From: Henricia sp. BOLD:AAB3569
Lineage: Eukaryota; Echinodermata; Asteroidea; Spinulosida; Echinasteridae
DNA: 64,000 nt
Direction of reading: 5' to 3'
Assembly: GCA_037783545.1 (NCBI GenBank)
Contig: JBBELK010000105.1
Coordinates: 1-64,000 of the forward strand
Numbering within the stretch: the stretch's first letter is position 1; every line of letters begins with the position of its first letter. The position numbers and the translations under genes were made by a program. Under the pieces are notes generated by a model, which saw only the letters and a list, made by a program, of their open reading frames with translations, did not search any database and was not told the origin of the DNA. Below are positions 1 through 25,200 of this stretch, one piece after another.

Positions 1-3000
1 AAATGTTATGATTTAGATTTTCCTTAACATTGCAGGAAATGTTGCTTAGGACCCATAGATGATATACCTTGAATTTAACATTGACTGGTCATCCAGAAAA
101 TAAAATATGAAATTTGGGAAATGATTTAGATTTTGAGAAAATTTGTTGAATTTTTGCCAAATTGTCCATTTTTCTTAGAAATAAGGTTCCAGACAGTCTA
201 AATTTTCATTATGAGTCATTTCTAAGACATTTTCAAAAACGTCAATTTTTGGCCAATTTTGATAAAAATTGATGGGCTAACCCCTTGTGATTTTTTTAAT
301 TTTTGGCCAAAAATGTTATGATTTAGATTTTCCTTAAAATTGCAGGAAATGTTGCTTAGGACCCATAGATGATATACCTTGAATTTAACATTGACTGGTC
401 ATCCAGAAAATAAAATATGAAATTTGGGAAATGATTTAGATTTTGAGAAAATTTGTTGAATTTTTGCCAAATTGTCCATTTTTCTTAGAAATAAGGTTCC
501 AGACAGTCTAAATTTTCATTATGAGTCATTTCTAAGACATTTTCAAAAACGTCAATTTTTGGCCAATTTTGATAAAAATTGATGGGCTAACCCCTTGTGA
601 TTTTTTTAATTTTTGGCCAAAAATGTTATGATTTAGATTTTCCTTAAAATTGCAGGAAATGTTGCTTAGGACCCATAGATGATATACCTTGAATTTAACA
701 TTGACTGGTCATCCAGAAAATAAAATATGAAATTTTGAAAAGTTTTTAGATTTTGAGAAAATTGGTTGAATTTTGGCCAAATTGTCCATTTTTCTTAGAA
801 ATAAGGTTCCAGACAGTCTAAATTTTCATTATGAGTCATTTCTAAGACATTTTCAAAAACGTCAATTTTTGGCCAATTTTGATAAAAATTGATGGGTAAC
901 CCCTTGTGATTTTTTTAATTTTTGGCCAAAAATGTTATGATTTAGATTTTCCTTAACATTGCAGGAAATGTTGCTTAGGACCCATAGATGATATACCTTG
1001 AATTTAACATTGACTTGTCATCCAGAAAATAAAATATGAAATTTGGGAAATGATTTAGATTTTGAGAAAATTTGTTGAATTTTTGCCAAATTGTCCATGT
1101 TGCTTAGGACCCATAGATGATATACCTTGAATTTAACATTGACTGGTCATCCAGAAAATAAAATATGAAATTTTGAAAAGTTTTTAGATTTTGAGAATAT
1201 TTGTTGAATTTTTGCCAAATTGTCAATTTTTCTTAGAAATAAGGTTCCAGACAGTCTAAATTTTCATTATGAGTCATTTCTAAGACATTTTCAAAAACGT
1301 CAATTTTTGGCCAATTTTGATAAAAATTGATGGGCTAACCCCTTGTGATTTTTTTAATTTTTGGCCAAAAATGTTATGATTTAGATTTTCCTTAACATTG
1401 CAGGAAATGTTGCTTAGGACCCATAGATGATATACCTTGAATTTAACATTGACAGGTCATCCAGAAAATAAAATATGAAATTTTGAAAAGTTTTTAGATT
1501 TTGAGAAAATTGGTTGAATTTTGGCCAAATTGTCAATTTTTCTTAGAAATAAGGTTCCAGACAGTCTAAATTTTCATTATGAGTCATTTCTAAGACATTT
1601 TCAAAAACGTCAATTTTTGGCCAATTTTGATAAAAATTGATGGGCTAACCCCTTGTGATTTTTTTAATTTTTGGCCAAAAATGTTATGATTTAGATTTTC
1701 CTTAAAATTGCAGGAAATGTTGCTTAGGACCCATAGATGATATACCTTGAATTTAACATTGACTGGTCATCCAGAAAATAAAATATGAAATTTGGGAAAT
1801 GATTTAGATTTTGAGAAAATTTGTTGAATTTTGGCCAAATTGTCCATTTTTCTTAGAAATAAGGTTCCAGACAGTCTAAATTTTCATTATGAGTCATTTC
1901 TAAGACATTTTCAAAAACGTAAATTTTTGGCCAATTTTGATAAAAATTGATGGGCTAACCCCTTGTGATTTTTTTATTTTTTTGCCAAAAATGTTATGAT
2001 TTAGATTTTCCTTAAAATTGCAGGAAATGTTGCTTAGGACCCATAGATGATATACCTTGAATTTAACATTGACTGGTCATCCAGAAAATAAAATATGAAA
2101 TTTGGGAAATGATTTAGATTTTGAGAAAATTTGTTGAATTTTGGCCAAATTGTCCATTTTTCTTAGAAATAAGGTTCCAGACAGTCTAAATTTTCATTAT
2201 GAGTCATTTCTAAGACATTTTCAAAAACGTCAATTTTTGGCCAATTTTGATAAAAATTGATGGGCTAACCCCTTGTGATTTTTTTAATTTTTGGCCAAAA
2301 ATGTTATGATTTAGATTTTCCTTAAAATTGCAGGAAATGTTGCTTAGGACCCATAGATGATATACCTTGAATTTAACATTGACTGGTCATCCAGAAAATA
2401 AAATATGAAATTTTGAAAAGTTTTAAGATTTTGAGAATATTTGTTGAATTTTTGCCAAATTGTCAATTTTTCTTAGAAATAAGGTTCCAGACAGTCTAAA
2501 TTTTCATTATGAGTCATTTCTAAGACATTTTCAAAAACGTCAATTTTTGGCCAATTTTGATAAAAATTGATGGGCTAACCCCTTGTGATTTTTTTAATTT
2601 TTGGCCAAAAATGTTATGATTTAGATTTTCCTTAAAATTGCAGGAAATGTTGCTTAGGACCCATAGATGATATACCTTGAATTTAACATTGACTGGTCAT
2701 CCAGAAAATAAAATATGAAATTTGGGAAATGATTTAGATTTTGAGAAAATTTGTTGAATTTTTGCCAAATTGTCCATTTTTCTTAGAAATAAGGTTCCAG
2801 ACAGTCTAAATTTTCATTATGAGTCATTTCTAAGACATTTTCAAAAACGTAAATTTTTGGCCAATTTTGATAAAAATTGATGGGCTAACCCCTTGTGATT
2901 TTTTTAATTTTTTGCCAAAAATGTTATGATTTAGATTTTCCTTAAAATTGCAGGAAATGTTGCTTAGGACCCATAGATGATATACCTTGAATTTAACATT

Positions 3001-3660
3001 GACTGGTCATCCAAAAAATAAAATATGAAATTTGGGAAATGATTTAGATTTTGAGAAAATTTGTTGAATTTTTGCCAAATTGTCCATTTTTCTTAGAAAT
3101 AAGGTTCCAGACAGTCTAAATTTCCATTATGAGTCATTTCTAAGACATTTTCAAAAACGTAAATTTTTGGCCAATTTTGATAAAAATTGATGGGCTAACC
3201 CCTTGTGATTTTTTTAATTTTTTGCCAAAAATGTTATGATTTAGATTTTCCTTAAAATTGCAGGAAATGTTGCTTAGGACCCATAGATGATATACCTTGA
3301 ATTTAACATTGACTGGTCATCCAAAAAATAAAATAAGAAATTTGAATTTTTTTTTAGATTTTGAGAAAATTGGTTGAATTTTTGCCAAATTGTCCATTTT
3401 TCTTAGAAATAAGGTTCCAGACAGTCTAAATTTTCATTATGAGTCATTTCTAAGACATTTTCAAAAAAGGCAATTTTTGGCCAATTTTGATAAAAATTGC
3501 TGGACTAACCCCTTGTGATTTTCTTTGAATTTTTGGCCAAAAATTGTATGATTTAGATTTTCCTTAAAATTGCAGGAAATGTTGCTTAGGACCCATAGAT
3601 GATATTCCTTGAATTTAACATTGACTGGTCATCCAGAAAATAAAATAGGAAATTTGGAAA
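1..3660. repeat. 310-bp tandem satellite array, about 12 units
   Basis: The sequence CCCATAGATGATATACC recurs near 52, 362, 672, 981, 1110, 1420, 1730, 2040, 2350, 2660, 2970, 3280 and 3592. The spacing is 309-312 bp except for one step of about 129 bp, so one unit lacks about 181 bp. Units are AT-rich and nearly identical. Two interchangeable variants exist in one segment (AATTTGGGAAATGATTTAG versus AATTTTGAAAAGTTTTTAG). The last units near 3300-3660 are the most diverged, as expected at an array edge. The array continues beyond the left end of the window. No gene is seen inside it. Confidence 0.97.
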
Positions 3661-3667
3661 TAATTCA

Positions 3668-3810
3668 GGGCTGCGTTCCAAACACGCGAACGTTGCCAAC
3701 GTTCGCCACTGGTTACAGTGCTTTTGTGCCTTAGTCTATGAAAAGTCGGGTACCAGTTGTTGGCGAACGTTGCAAACGTTTGCAATGTTCGCGTGTTTGG
3801 AACGCAGCCC
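3668..3810. mobile_element. Fold-back MITE, family A copy 1
   Basis: A 143-bp near-palindrome. It starts GGGCTGCGTTCCAAACACGC and ends with the reverse complement. Inner arms carry GAACGTTGCCAACG. It sits at the edge of the satellite. A second copy lies at 61070-61209 in DNAJC21 intron 1, which supports a mobile, non-autonomous DNA element. No coding capacity and no clear target-site duplication were seen. Confidence 0.85.
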
Positions 3811-19207: not shown

Positions 19208-22200
19208 TCATATTGGTTTTGGTAACGACAGCTGGGCTGGTTTAGGAGGCTCATAGCTGTACAAAAAGGTTGCTGTTATAACTAATGAGGCTCCAATGAA
19301 GAAATAGCTGGAATGAGAAGATTAACAAAGATGTTTGAATGATCAAAATAGGATCAAAGTAGGATCAAAGTAGGATCAAAATAGGATCAAAGTAGGATCA
19401 AAATAGGATCAAAGTAGGATCAAAATAGGATCAAAGCTGTACAAAAAGGTTGCTGTTATGACTAATGAGGCTCCAATGAAGAAATAGCTGGAATGAGAAG
19501 ATTAACAAAGATGTTTGAATGATGCAAAATAGGATCAAAGTAGGATCAAAGTAGGATCAAAATAGGATCAAAGTAGGATCAAAATAGGATCAAAATAGGA
19601 TCAAAATAGGATCATAGCTGTATAAAAAGGTTGCTGCTACGACTAATGATGTTCCGTGTGGAAAGGAGAAAAAATATGACCTAAACTTATTTGACAGTTA
19701 TTTGGTCATAAATTCATGAATTTGAAAGAACCCAATTTTAAGACATACGAACCCAAAAATTTGACAACTTTTATCAACTTGTCAAAACCTTTGACAAATA
19801 CTATTGTATTTCTAAACTGCTCAATATTATACCTTAAGCACATTACTCCTCACTCCTCCAAAATCAATATGATTGTTCATACACCTTAGGGAGTTAGGGC
19901 TAATAACCGAACCACTCATTTTCCTGCATATTTCCATCAAATAATACTGCTGTATTTTCTTTACTTTGTCTCCGATTTTCATTCAGCAACAAACTTCTTA
20001 GGAATTGTTTTTCTTACCTTGACGGAACAAAATCATTGAGTAAATAGTAGGACACTAATGTTGAGGCAATGATAGAAAGCGACGTGGCAAAACCTTTCAA
20101 GATGTTATCAGCATACTTGATGACGGCTGCAATAACCAAACCACTGCAGGCCTAGACAAAAATGTCACAAACATGGGTTTTTATTTTTGCAATACTTTAT
20201 CAAGTCTTTCCAAACAAATTTCAAGTCTTTCCTGAAACAATTTAATTCTGGCTCGGAAAAGCCTTTTCTAAGTTTAGAGATCTGGCAAAGCAAATTTTTG
20301 CCCAAAGTAGCCCAGGGGGTGTCCAAAGTAGACAACAGATTTCTGGAAATGTTCAAAAATAATTTCCAATTGAGGAAAAGTGCCTTGCCAAAGGACATAA
20401 TCTTTGAAGGTTCTTACCTGGAATAAAATTACTATCCATGTAATCTTGTTGTAACCTTGGAAATAACCAGCTGAAAGAACTTTTTCCCCGTCGTTGATAA
20501 AAACTCCGCCCAGACCAAATAAAATACCAAAGAAAGCTGCAGGAATAAAAAATGGGACATTAAAGTAAAAGTCACAAGACAAAAAGAGAGAATCGTTCTC
20601 ATATTTTAAGTTATTCTATTGTTTGGAATTGTATTGTTTGCGTGCATTACACTAGATTTAATACAATGCATTTTAAACAAAAACACTACTCCCAAAGAAA
20701 ATGACAAAAATTGAACAAATACATAGGCTTATATTCCAAACAAAATTTAGATGATAACCTGTCAAAAACTATTCATACACATGTAACACGATATTTTAGC
20801 AGGTCATATCCTTTGGAAAAACCAGCCAGTTTGATATCTTTTTGCCAATTTCATAAAAATTATGTTTAACAATTTTTTTGCAAATATTTCTTACCAAGTT
20901 CGATATTCCGAAGCCAAAGCGACTGCTTGGTACCCTTGAGGATCTTCTCAAAGTAGACCCCAGCAAAGCCACTGGAAAAGCACGCCGAGAGGACAGCTAC
21001 CAGACCAACAATTTGGTTTTTGGACGTGGACTCGCTTTTTTCTCCGTCAGTACTTTCTGATGGCATCTGTACAAAAAAAAAGACCAAAGTTATTAGGAGA
21101 AAAAAGGAAACATTTTCTTTATCAGTCTTTCATCGGACTTTTAAAGTGAGAACTGTTTCAGAAGACTTGAATGTCAGATCCAAAACCTGGTCATGTTATC
21201 AAAACTTTCACAATTCCTTCACAATTTGGCTACCGTGTTCTTTGTTTTGTTCTTCATTGTACATTTGGGTCTTTCCACAGTAAAGGGGGCATTTTGGCAA
21301 CACAGACCATATTTTCGAGGAAATATCTTTGTCTGGTCTCAAAATACAAGTTGTTCTGAAGAGATAACTTAGACCCAAAAAGGGTTACAAATAGTGTGAC
21401 AAACATGCCTTTCTATAAATCCTGTGTACAAATTTCCAATATACACTCGTAACAGGGCGGACACTTGTTACATTTTAGGCCGTCCCGGTTACAAGCGTAT
21501 ATTGTAAATTTGTACACAAGGTTTTCAGAAAGGCATGTTGTCACACTATTTGTAACCCTTTTTGGGACTAAGTTATCTCTTCGGAACAACTGAAACTTAT
21601 TTCGCTTATTTTGAGACCAGACAAAGGTATTTCCTGGAAAATATGGTCTGTGTTGCCAAAATGCCCCCTTTACTGTGGAAAGACTCATTTAAAAACAGCA
21701 CAATCTGTCCTCACAAAAACCATTATAAGATTCACTTGACTATTTAAAGGAGCGTAACCAGAGTTTCTGGAAAATAGTTTTCGATGTAACTTACCAATAT
21801 TATCAAGTAACTCCCATACACACCTCCCATGTCCCAAAAACCCGAAAACATTCGCAATTTCCAGTAAAAAAATTGAACAAAACTATCGAGTCGGCTTTCA
21901 GCGGATAAACGTTGATACTGGAAAATTAGTTTACAAATAATCGGTAGATTTTCGACGATATCCTCGGAAATATGCGGCCTAGAAGCGCGGGAGTTTCAGT
22001 TTCGTAATCAGAAAAATATAACGGATGTTATGATATAAAAATCTCATGACCCATAAGGTAAGTCCCGGGGAGTTATGGGTAAAAAAAAGTGATCTGGTCA
22101 CACTTCTTTAATACCTCACACTGAACTAATATTTTGAGAAAATATCCTTGTGATACAAATCTGAACCCAGAAAAACACGAGCTAAAAACATGGGAGGCAT

Positions 22201-25200
22201 TTAAAAACTATGAGAACACAGACTTTTAAAGGAAAAAAATGCAAACAATATTCAAATACAAAGCACACAAAACAACTTGGCGACTCTCTCAATGTTCACC
22301 GGTAACCTTCTTTTGACTCACCTGAACCAATGCCACACCAATCATGAGGAATACCAGTGAAGCCCATTTGAGTGAGTGCAGCTTCCGACCCAGCATCATT
22401 ACAGAGAACATGGCCGTTGTTAAAATCTTCAGTTGGTATGTGACCTGCAAACAAACCATGACAACACATGCTATAGACCGTATCTAATAGCTGCCATTTC
22501 GTGGGGCACCTTCTGTTACTTAAACCGTTCATTTATTTATTCACCACATCCAACAGCGGAAGGACCGCCAATTACAGGAATGGGATCAATTAACATAGAT
22601 ATTCGAATAACTGTCAACTTCTAAGTTGAATTAGAAACGGCCAGAGATACCGGGGAATCCCTTGCTCTTCACGAAAGAATGCTCTGGGATCTTTAAAGTG
22701 CGTTACCGAAGGACGAAAAAAGTGTGATTAAGTGCCTTGCATAAGAGCACAAGTGCCACAACCCGTGCAATTTAATTGAAGTTCAAGCTTACTATCTTTA
22801 CTTATAAATAATTTTGCTATTTTAGTTATATTTTTCATAATCAAATATATTTTGGGGAGAAGGGGGCGGGGGAACCTTTGCAGTGGAGCTAATGCAGCAG
22901 AAACGTCAATTGTGGGAGGAGGCAATCACTACACATTCCGTTTGTGAAACCACCCTTTAAAGCCCTGGTTCTCATACATTTTTCTGGCCATTCCCACTCG
23001 ACGGGGTCTTGGTCCTTTAGGTTCTAAACCAGCCTGAAATATCGACGTAGGAATATTTTCAGCCAGTTTCGTTCAGGCGCCTGGGAGTTTATCAATAACA
23101 AACAGAAAAGGGCTTAATAAAATTTGTATACGATACACATTGCATTTGGGACCAATGATGGGTGGCCACTATAAACAGGTGGTCTCTTTATTAAAGTGGC
23201 CTTGATAGCAGATTTGAGTGTTTTTGATACAAACCTGATACGTAGCAGCATCCAGATTAGACAAAGCTAGAAACAGCAGATTGTTCTGTATGGTGTAAAG
23301 TCCCGATGGCACGGCAAGTTTAAGGGTGTCTACTGGTTTCTCGATAGCTTGCTCTTTGATTATCTTGACTAAATTTAATATCTCCCATTCACCTGGATGA
23401 AAAAAAGATTAAAAGTCATCAAGGAATCAAACACAAGCAACTGAAAAATTACCTCATTACATTGGCACATTTACTCCTAGCTGGAAGCAAGACATTTATG
23501 ACAAAGTGCCTTGCTCAAGGACACATGTAGGCAACTTCAGTGAAGCATGACCAATGTCATCAAGCAAGGAAACAACTCTTCAAATGCACTGAAGCATGAC
23601 GACTAATCTTACCTTCAGTACCGAGCACAAGCACAAGACATATAGACATCTTGACGAATTCGGCCACTACGATAGCGGTTGAGCTGATATATCGCGGCCC
23701 ATCGCCTTGGACCATACGTGAATATCGCAACGTTAAGACCAGCGATGTGGTCAGTAGAATTAAGATGGCCAGGGATATGTACTTGGGGTTCATCTTAACA
23801 GCTGGCATCTAAGAAAGAGAAAATAAGAATGTAATGAATTTCAGAAAAATCAAATTACAAGACGAGATTGTACTTTTGAAACAAATAAATTCCTGATTTG
23901 AATTAACCAAAATAATTAAGAGAATTTATAGAAAATTAGCTGAATAGTTTAATTGCTAAACTAATGGTGCTTGTTTGTCTACCCATAGGTCAAAGGAGTA
24001 AAAATTTTGAAGTTGCTTTACAATTATTTTCTTAAAATTACTTATCAAAGAGCATATTTGATAGGAAAACCCAAATTTAGAAGAGAACAAAAAATGCAGT
24101 TAAATTTTCAGCCAGTCTGTTTTGTTCACAAGGTATGAAGCCATGGTAAACTACTTAATTGTTTCCCATCAAAGGTTCGGTCAGAAATTGTTTGCTTTAA
24201 ATTTAAAGTCAGATTAAACGGTTGCTACCGAGCTGATGCCTTTGGTCTGATCTGCATCTGAAGAATGCAATGGTGCCATCTTGATTTGCCTGTTGCAAAC
24301 TGAAATGCTTCACACAAACGCTTTATTTATAATAAAATATGCTAATTTATGTTTAAAGACGAATGGCTCTACCATACAGGACAATTGCTCAACTACCGTA
24401 TCGTAGCATATTATTTAATTAAACTATATCACCCAACATTTTTCCCCCTTTTAAAAGGGAATAATAAAGTTATACGCCCACAATATAATGAAAGTATTCA
24501 ATTATGTTAGTTTAGTGTCAATAATTAAGATAGTGTCAATATCATGACTGTGCTGTGTAAATTGGTTGAGCGGTGTATTAAAGAGACACGCATATTATTC
24601 AATTTAGAAATCAACAGCTGGAGTACTATTTTAACCAAAATAATAAAATTTATGGACCAAAAAAGTTCATTAATGCCGAATCAAAAGGCTCTGAAATACA
24701 GTCACCAAATGTTTGGATTTAGCTACGATGTTTACTTTGGATTTCCTATCAATTTAATACAGAAACTGGTTTGTATATTTGATAATTACACCAGATGATT
24801 TTTATAAAATTAGTAATAGTATTATTCAGTTGAATTTACTGCTTATAATCATCATCTTCTGCATATCCAATTGGACGTTGCGACCCGGACAAGTTTCCTG
24901 TAAAAAGGTGTAAGCCTCTCTGTCCCGAGCACATCGACCCGCTTCCGATAGGCTCATATTAATCACCTCAGATACATCATCCTCCCACCTTCTCCTCGGG
25001 CTCCTTCACTGTCTCTTTCCTTGTACAACTCCTTCCATTTTTCCCCCAGCCCTTCATGACGCTTAAAGGTACAGGCTCGTCAGCAATGTGCGCGTGCCAA
25101 ATTGGTGTCACGAAATACGCAGAGCTGCCTTTGCTATGGACCTGCATATTTCAGGGCACGAATTTGGCGTGCACGCATTGCTGATGAGCCTATGCCTTTA

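Follow-up and report, generated by a model that had tools for sequence, protein, structure and literature searches.

The window analysed here, by which we mean the whole 64,000-nucleotide stretch at C105:1-64000 (assembly of 740.7 Mb in 2104 contigs, probably of a sea star), contains on its minus strand a transporter gene whose last intron carries two short-unit arrays and two partial copies of the gene's own last exon. If the middle of the resulting three exon-end copies (E2) is real, it was probably made by unequal exchange between the live exon (E) and a dead exon fragment (E'). Events of this kind are known; the intermediates at this locus are unusually clear. Its three versions in one assembly show stages that normally have to be inferred, namely a dead fragment of the exon, arrays of variable length, a hybrid exon whose acceptor is intact and an array that takes the place of the intron tail next to the acceptor. 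The features are listed below.

19208..19307, minus strand: E, the live last coding exon, stop included; identical in C105 and in the other two versions, C216 and C204
19308..19344, minus strand: intron tail before E (GATCATTCAAACATCTTTGTTAATCTTCTCATTCCAG), of which only the last 15 nt occur in C216 and C204
19345..19432, minus strand: array 2, eight 11-mers (units counted by eye), gene-strand order TCTCTCCT, between E2 and E
19435..19487, minus strand: E2, the middle exon copy, with 53 nt of exon homology and an intact acceptor, running into array 2
19488..19525, minus strand: intron tail before E2, carrying a one-base insertion compared with the tail before E
19526..19613, minus strand: array 1, eight 11-mers (units counted by eye), gene-strand order TTTCTCCT, between E' and E2
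~19608..19655, minus strand: E', the dead last-exon fragment of ~48 nt, in frame, without acceptor, overlapping the first array unit
20018..20151, minus strand: exon 6, the upstream splice donor partner (phase AG|C)
20418-20536, minus strand: exon 5 of the gene model for the 333-aa product
20895-21066, minus strand: exon 4 of the same model
22322-22444, minus strand: exon 3 of the same model
23235-23392, minus strand: exon 2 of the same model
23613-23808, minus strand: exon 1 of the same model; exons 5 to 1 span 20418..23808

A preliminary description of this DNA reported three exon-end copies 180-181 bp apart with two 11-mer arrays between them, and TRF and direct reading both recover that arrangement. 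In TRF the 11-mer array spans 19341-19614 and a period of 181 bp (95% matches) spans 19247-19649; exact copies of the exon start begin at 19307 and 19487 on the minus strand, and the three exon-end copies are spaced by 180 and 181 bp, with eight 11-mers in each of the two intervening arrays. Moving upstream from E on the gene strand, one meets in order the tail, eight 11-mers, E2, a second tail, eight more 11-mers and E', so that the repeat structure can be written E'..TACAGCT (unit, 181) (unit, 180) ATGAGCC.. with array units of two gene-strand types, T (GATCCTATTTT) and C (GATCCTACTTT). The count of three stands, but E' is shorter (~48 nt) and more diverged than the description implied: it comprises only an internal piece of the exon (GGARC...TATGATCCT), and its identity to E is 38 of 44 nt (86%) in the window and 44 of 48 (92%) in C204. 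Aligned locally to E, the window fragment scores 58, where the highest score from 500 dinucleotide shuffles was 24, and direct reading agrees with the earlier statement that the copy nearest the upstream exon keeps SYDP and has no acceptor.

Seven AG/GT-bounded exons on the minus strand encode a protein of 333 aa that matches Nuc_sug_transp at full length (Pfam PF04142, E 3.1e-124; residues 7-318 against positions 4-315 of a 315-position profile), and this match upholds the proposal that the exon copies derive from the last exon of an SLC35A gene. A PDB search with the same product matched the CMP-sialic acid transporter 6oh2 (E 2.5e-61); the three distinct PDB sequences recovered are all CMP-sialic acid transporters, with no A3 structure among them. 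Judged by its predicted protein, the gene is an SLC35A-type nucleotide-sugar transporter; the narrower SLC35A3 label is one that we presume from the C-terminal sequence.

Two more colinear versions of the locus, on C216 and C204, align over most of the window. In blocks of at least 400 nt their mean identity to it is 95.1% and 95.3% respectively, and 92.9% to each other; summed alignment lengths among the three are inflated by repeated satellite alignments. E' and E occur in all three versions, with E identical throughout, and E2 is confined to the window version: C216 and C204 have the order E', single array, E. Head-to-tail units of at least ~10 bp whose copy number varies among versions of the locus (8+8 in C105, 7 in C216, 10 in C204) make this a polymorphic minisatellite. 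All three versions encode an intact and essentially identical 333-aa transporter; pairwise, the coding sequences differ at 3, 7 and 10 synonymous codons and at 1, 1 and 0 non-synonymous ones. Within the last intron, C216 (~428700-428950) lacks stretches of 17 nt and 58 nt that are present in C105 and C204.

Under unequal exchange, the minisatellite in the last intron would have lain between E' and E as direct repeats, which have TACAGCTATGA in common, and in the window version E of one strand would have paired with E' of another. The segment duplicated in this exchange would have been the array plus intron tail plus the exon's first 53 nt, and E2 would have been left as a hybrid whose acceptor and 5' end came from E and whose array-fused 3' end came from E'. 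The observed pattern of E2 is mostly hybrid: by eye, it equals E at the acceptor, at the exon 5' end and at two of the three upstream sites that separate E from both E' types, and it equals E' at the 3' end, where GATCCTATTTT comes next. Of what an exchange predicts, the E-like start, the E'-like end and the like array lengths are all seen, and the equal unit spacing fits the parental distance from E' to E. The spacing of 180 and 181 bp together with array lengths of 8 and 8 (one unit differing) points to an exchange in the exon repeats and not at random points in the array. Support also comes from the two colinear versions that have E', array and E without E2, and the intact gene in all three versions was counted in favour of the explanation. 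Two details sit less comfortably with it. Firstly, at the junction E2 reads TTTGATCC where E' reads TATGATCC, a mismatch for which the exchange needs one further mutation. Secondly, a Val codon is GTC in E2 and E' and GTT in E, which breaks the single clean switch point that an exchange would leave.

The first of these details is better explained by a different event, namely a tandem duplication at short CT homology that joined exon TACAGCT to the inside of the array (ACTTTGATCC) with E' uninvolved. This CT-overlap join accounts for the E2 junction without added mutation, as E2 AGCTTTGATCC matches a C-type unit boundary exactly over CTTTGATCC, and array 2 (TCTCTCCT), eight units long, could represent the end portion of a longer array in the parent. 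It requires, however, that the parental array had at least nine units, and it leaves to chance the equality of the arrays as they now stand (eight units each, seven of the eight agreeing in register). Granted that E2 is real, we regard such a join as possible but doubtful.

It is unlikely, in our judgement, that E2 is absent from the animal and that C105 is simply chimeric or mis-assembled at this point. In favour of such an artefact, C105 begins inside a 310-bp satellite, the window locus is present in three copies where comparison loci have two (C40/C158; C70/C480) or one (C767; C228), and 1-kb bins of C105 against C216 run from 100% to ~81% identity. Against it, three substitutions and a one-base insertion separate the two units of 180 and 181 bp in the window, a finding that speaks against simple stutter in assembly, and C105 has private differences from both other versions (e.g. 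at 24-28 kb) that would be unexpected in a chimera of C216 and C204. The three versions could represent alleles drawn from more than two haplotypes or a segment that was duplicated, or could be in part products of assembly. Exchange between E and E' remains the reading that we prefer for E2.

Identity along the contigs changes in a patchwork. From 5000 to 64000 the window comprises long runs of ~100% identity to C216, a few of 100% to C204 and others unlike both. The 1-kb bins of C105 against C216 from 29 to 49 kb are at 98.9-100%, whilst in the aligning parts at 57 and 59-61 kb C105 equals C204 exactly; elsewhere it differs from both. The minisatellite falls in one such patch (~18-20 kb), where bins against C216 are at 96.2 and 91.6% and those at 17 and 21 kb are at 99.9%. 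This patchwork could come from the presence of more than two haplotypes, from gene conversion between duplicates or from switching during assembly. The left flank of C204 has no match in 70 kb of C216, and is found whole or in part on five other contigs. The satellite at the contig start (period ~310 bp, window 1-3668) is also present on the colinear C216 and C204.

A mobile-element origin of the exon copies was rejected, as all five genome matches of an 89-nt E2 probe lie at the locus or its two counterparts. A dispersed repeat of ~65 bp does lie nearby (window 19845-19906), and its matches stop short of E'. Among 40 scored of 1006 candidates, this repeat was found in at least 32 other places at 83-93% identity; six copies are 95-100% identical to one another.

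The origin of the array itself is a separate matter, on which the earlier proposal, that it was born from the Asp-Pro codons of the exon, survives in part: the E' junction fits it, but an array that met the exon copy at short homology fits too, and similar arrays occur elsewhere in the genome. If the array did arise from codons, an early partial duplication would have fused exon GATCCT (Asp-Pro) to intron ATTTT, and the resulting pair of GATC words, 11 nt apart, would have been the seed for later slippage. This may be entertained as a tentative account. In all three versions E' runs via TATGATCCT into the first unit; one of the few mismatches of E' to E in C204 is at the end, GATCCT in E' against GAGCCT in E, and at the end of the array C105 has GATCCTATTTT and then GATCATTC. 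Models in which arrays grow from short spaced repeats are established (Haber and Louis; Taylor and Breden; as cited in PMC3389668). Against codon birth stand the live exon E, which reads GAGCCT and not GATCCT, the lack in E' of the acceptor that a plain tandem duplication would have supplied, and the occurrence of AGGATCAAA-core arrays at ~5 other sites, where the exon probe found nothing. A further point against it is that four SLC35-like paralogue loci of the genome (C70, C480, C767 and C228) have no YDP; these loci have other C-terminal tails after the last helix and so cannot date the Asp-Pro codon of the window gene. That Asp is ancestral at this C-terminal position is presumed from SLC35A3 proteins, which typically have Tyr-Asp-Pro there.

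Alternatively, a GATCAAA-core minisatellite may have arisen alone in the intron, to be joined later by an exon copy at TGA or GA.CCT homology, a sequence of events that is credible enough to be held provisionally. Three GATCAAA words at 11-12 nt spacing gave 151 genome matches against 15 for the reversed pattern, and the AGGATCAAA pattern gave 62 against none reversed. These contrasts rest on one control pattern (the reverse), however, and common minisatellites make some sharing of cores expected by chance; the CCT match past TGA would also have to be coincidence. Of the 62 AGGATCAAA matches, 24 are at the locus (11 in C105, 8 in C204 and 5 in C216) and 38 on nine other contigs, which were grouped into ~5 sites partly by unit sequence alone (C11 and C399 as one). 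No exon homology was found at these other sites in a whole-genome search with the E2 exon probe, and window 19600-20020 had no match in the flanking DNA of other array sites (L046-L050). The flanks covered were those on C3, C141, C715, C147, C40 and C158. The AGGATCAAA arrays elsewhere differ in unit length (~11 to 12 nt) and remainder, and the window array may be drawn from one genome-wide minisatellite family or may share its core by chance.

More broadly, GATCAAA-core minisatellites with variable remainders of 4-5 nt recur genome-wide. Counting overlapping rows, TRF lists 8 rows with a period of 9-16 in the 64-kb window and 14 in 80 kb of C204. On C141, C3 and C715 (L046, L047 and L048) there are 12-mer arrays, AGGATCAAAAGT, with a flank that by eye is apparently common to all three; these are perhaps a dispersed or duplicated element carrying a related minisatellite.

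The array also bears on splicing of the last intron, in terms of the motifs that it contains. Its units are pyrimidine-rich and have no AG, and TTGAT at each unit boundary matches yUnAy, the branch-point consensus. The array of C216 and C204 extends to ATCTTCTCATTCCAG, replacing the intron tail and adjoining the only acceptor, and the sole yUnAy matches 12-60 nt from the live acceptor are those in array units, at 20, 31, 42 and 53 nt; the live acceptor of C105 has TTAAT at 15 nt and TTGAT at 36 and 47 nt. The array is a candidate provider of the branch point in the C216 and C204 versions. Four of the five other introns of the gene have a yUnAy match 12-60 nt from the acceptor and one has none, so the motif is neither rare nor required.

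For E2, the last 36 intron nt match those before E, the acceptor is intact, the phase fits exon 6 and the frame is open. The gene model and acceptor reading bear out the earlier expectation of an intact middle copy with the tail SFDPILILL: the conceptual product is unchanged through FLYS, after which SFDPILILL replaces the normal tail. E2 may be a putative alternative 3' splice site with a new stop, in the window version only. The suggestion that the locus offers a route to alternative C-termini is therefore structurally open, but in just one of the three locus copies. If E2 is a hybrid of E and E', its 'DPILILL' is array sequence and not a retained codon state. Changes of this kind could matter, because some mammalian SLC35A tails carry ER or Golgi sorting signals (PMC9368800).

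An improbable extension of these observations would have the array act as a modular 3' splice-signal array, in which each unit carries a usable branch point and a pyrimidine run and repeated exchange spreads acceptor-plus-exon cassettes to give polymorphic tails. Were it true, AG-free units would let the array adjoin and drive the last acceptor, as they may in C216 and C204, and the gene would be naturally polymorphic, some of its versions producing a transporter whose tail is encoded by the array.

The locus may be set beside several systems in the literature. Minisatellite birth from short spaced direct repeats (Haber and Louis 1998; Taylor and Breden 2000; as cited in PMC3389668 and PMC2820488) has its likeness here in a short array with the GATC word repeated at its edges, a partial end unit (in C216 and C204) and a copy number that varies (7, 8+8 and 10). 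Unlike in that model as cited, one flank is a coding-exon fragment and the array-plus-exon block has been duplicated again. A 1995 study, to judge from its title in the references of PMC3618361, likewise concerned an intragenic minisatellite with splice signals; those were splice donors, whereas the signals here are candidate branch points and an acceptor pyrimidine tract, as motifs alone. In SLC35A2, the two splice forms UGT1 and UGT2 differ such that a C-terminal motif of one sets ER localisation (PMC9368800), unlike the present isoform, which is conceptual and limited to one version of the locus. Among the matches listed in searches of open-licence papers in PubMed Central, none was identified as describing this locus or a minisatellite that provides branch points for its host intron.

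Tandem exon duplication reportedly gives rise to alternative exons (Kondrashov and Koonin; Letunic and others). E2 resembles such a duplicate in being a second acceptor and exon start, in frame and upstream of the original, and departs from it in that the hybrid ends in array sequence instead of forming a full duplicate exon. If transcripts use E2, the window would hold an unequal exchange caught in the act of making a new C-terminus; if E2 is unused, it would be an ordinary intronic structural polymorphism.

Other features of the assembly were noted in passing. Matches of the probes L043 and L044 are dominated by dispersed repeats. L043 (C105:150001-151500) contains a stretch of ~815 bp that is 98% its own reverse complement and has dozens of copies at 98-100% identity; it has the look of a palindromic element that was active recently. 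C955 carries three COX1 copies 16,221 bp apart and C2104 carries one; C955 is a mitochondrial genome in concatemer form. Translation of COX1 makes sense when AAA is read as Asn and ATA as Ile, as the echinoderm code has it, and the tRNA order before this gene appears to resemble that of sea stars.
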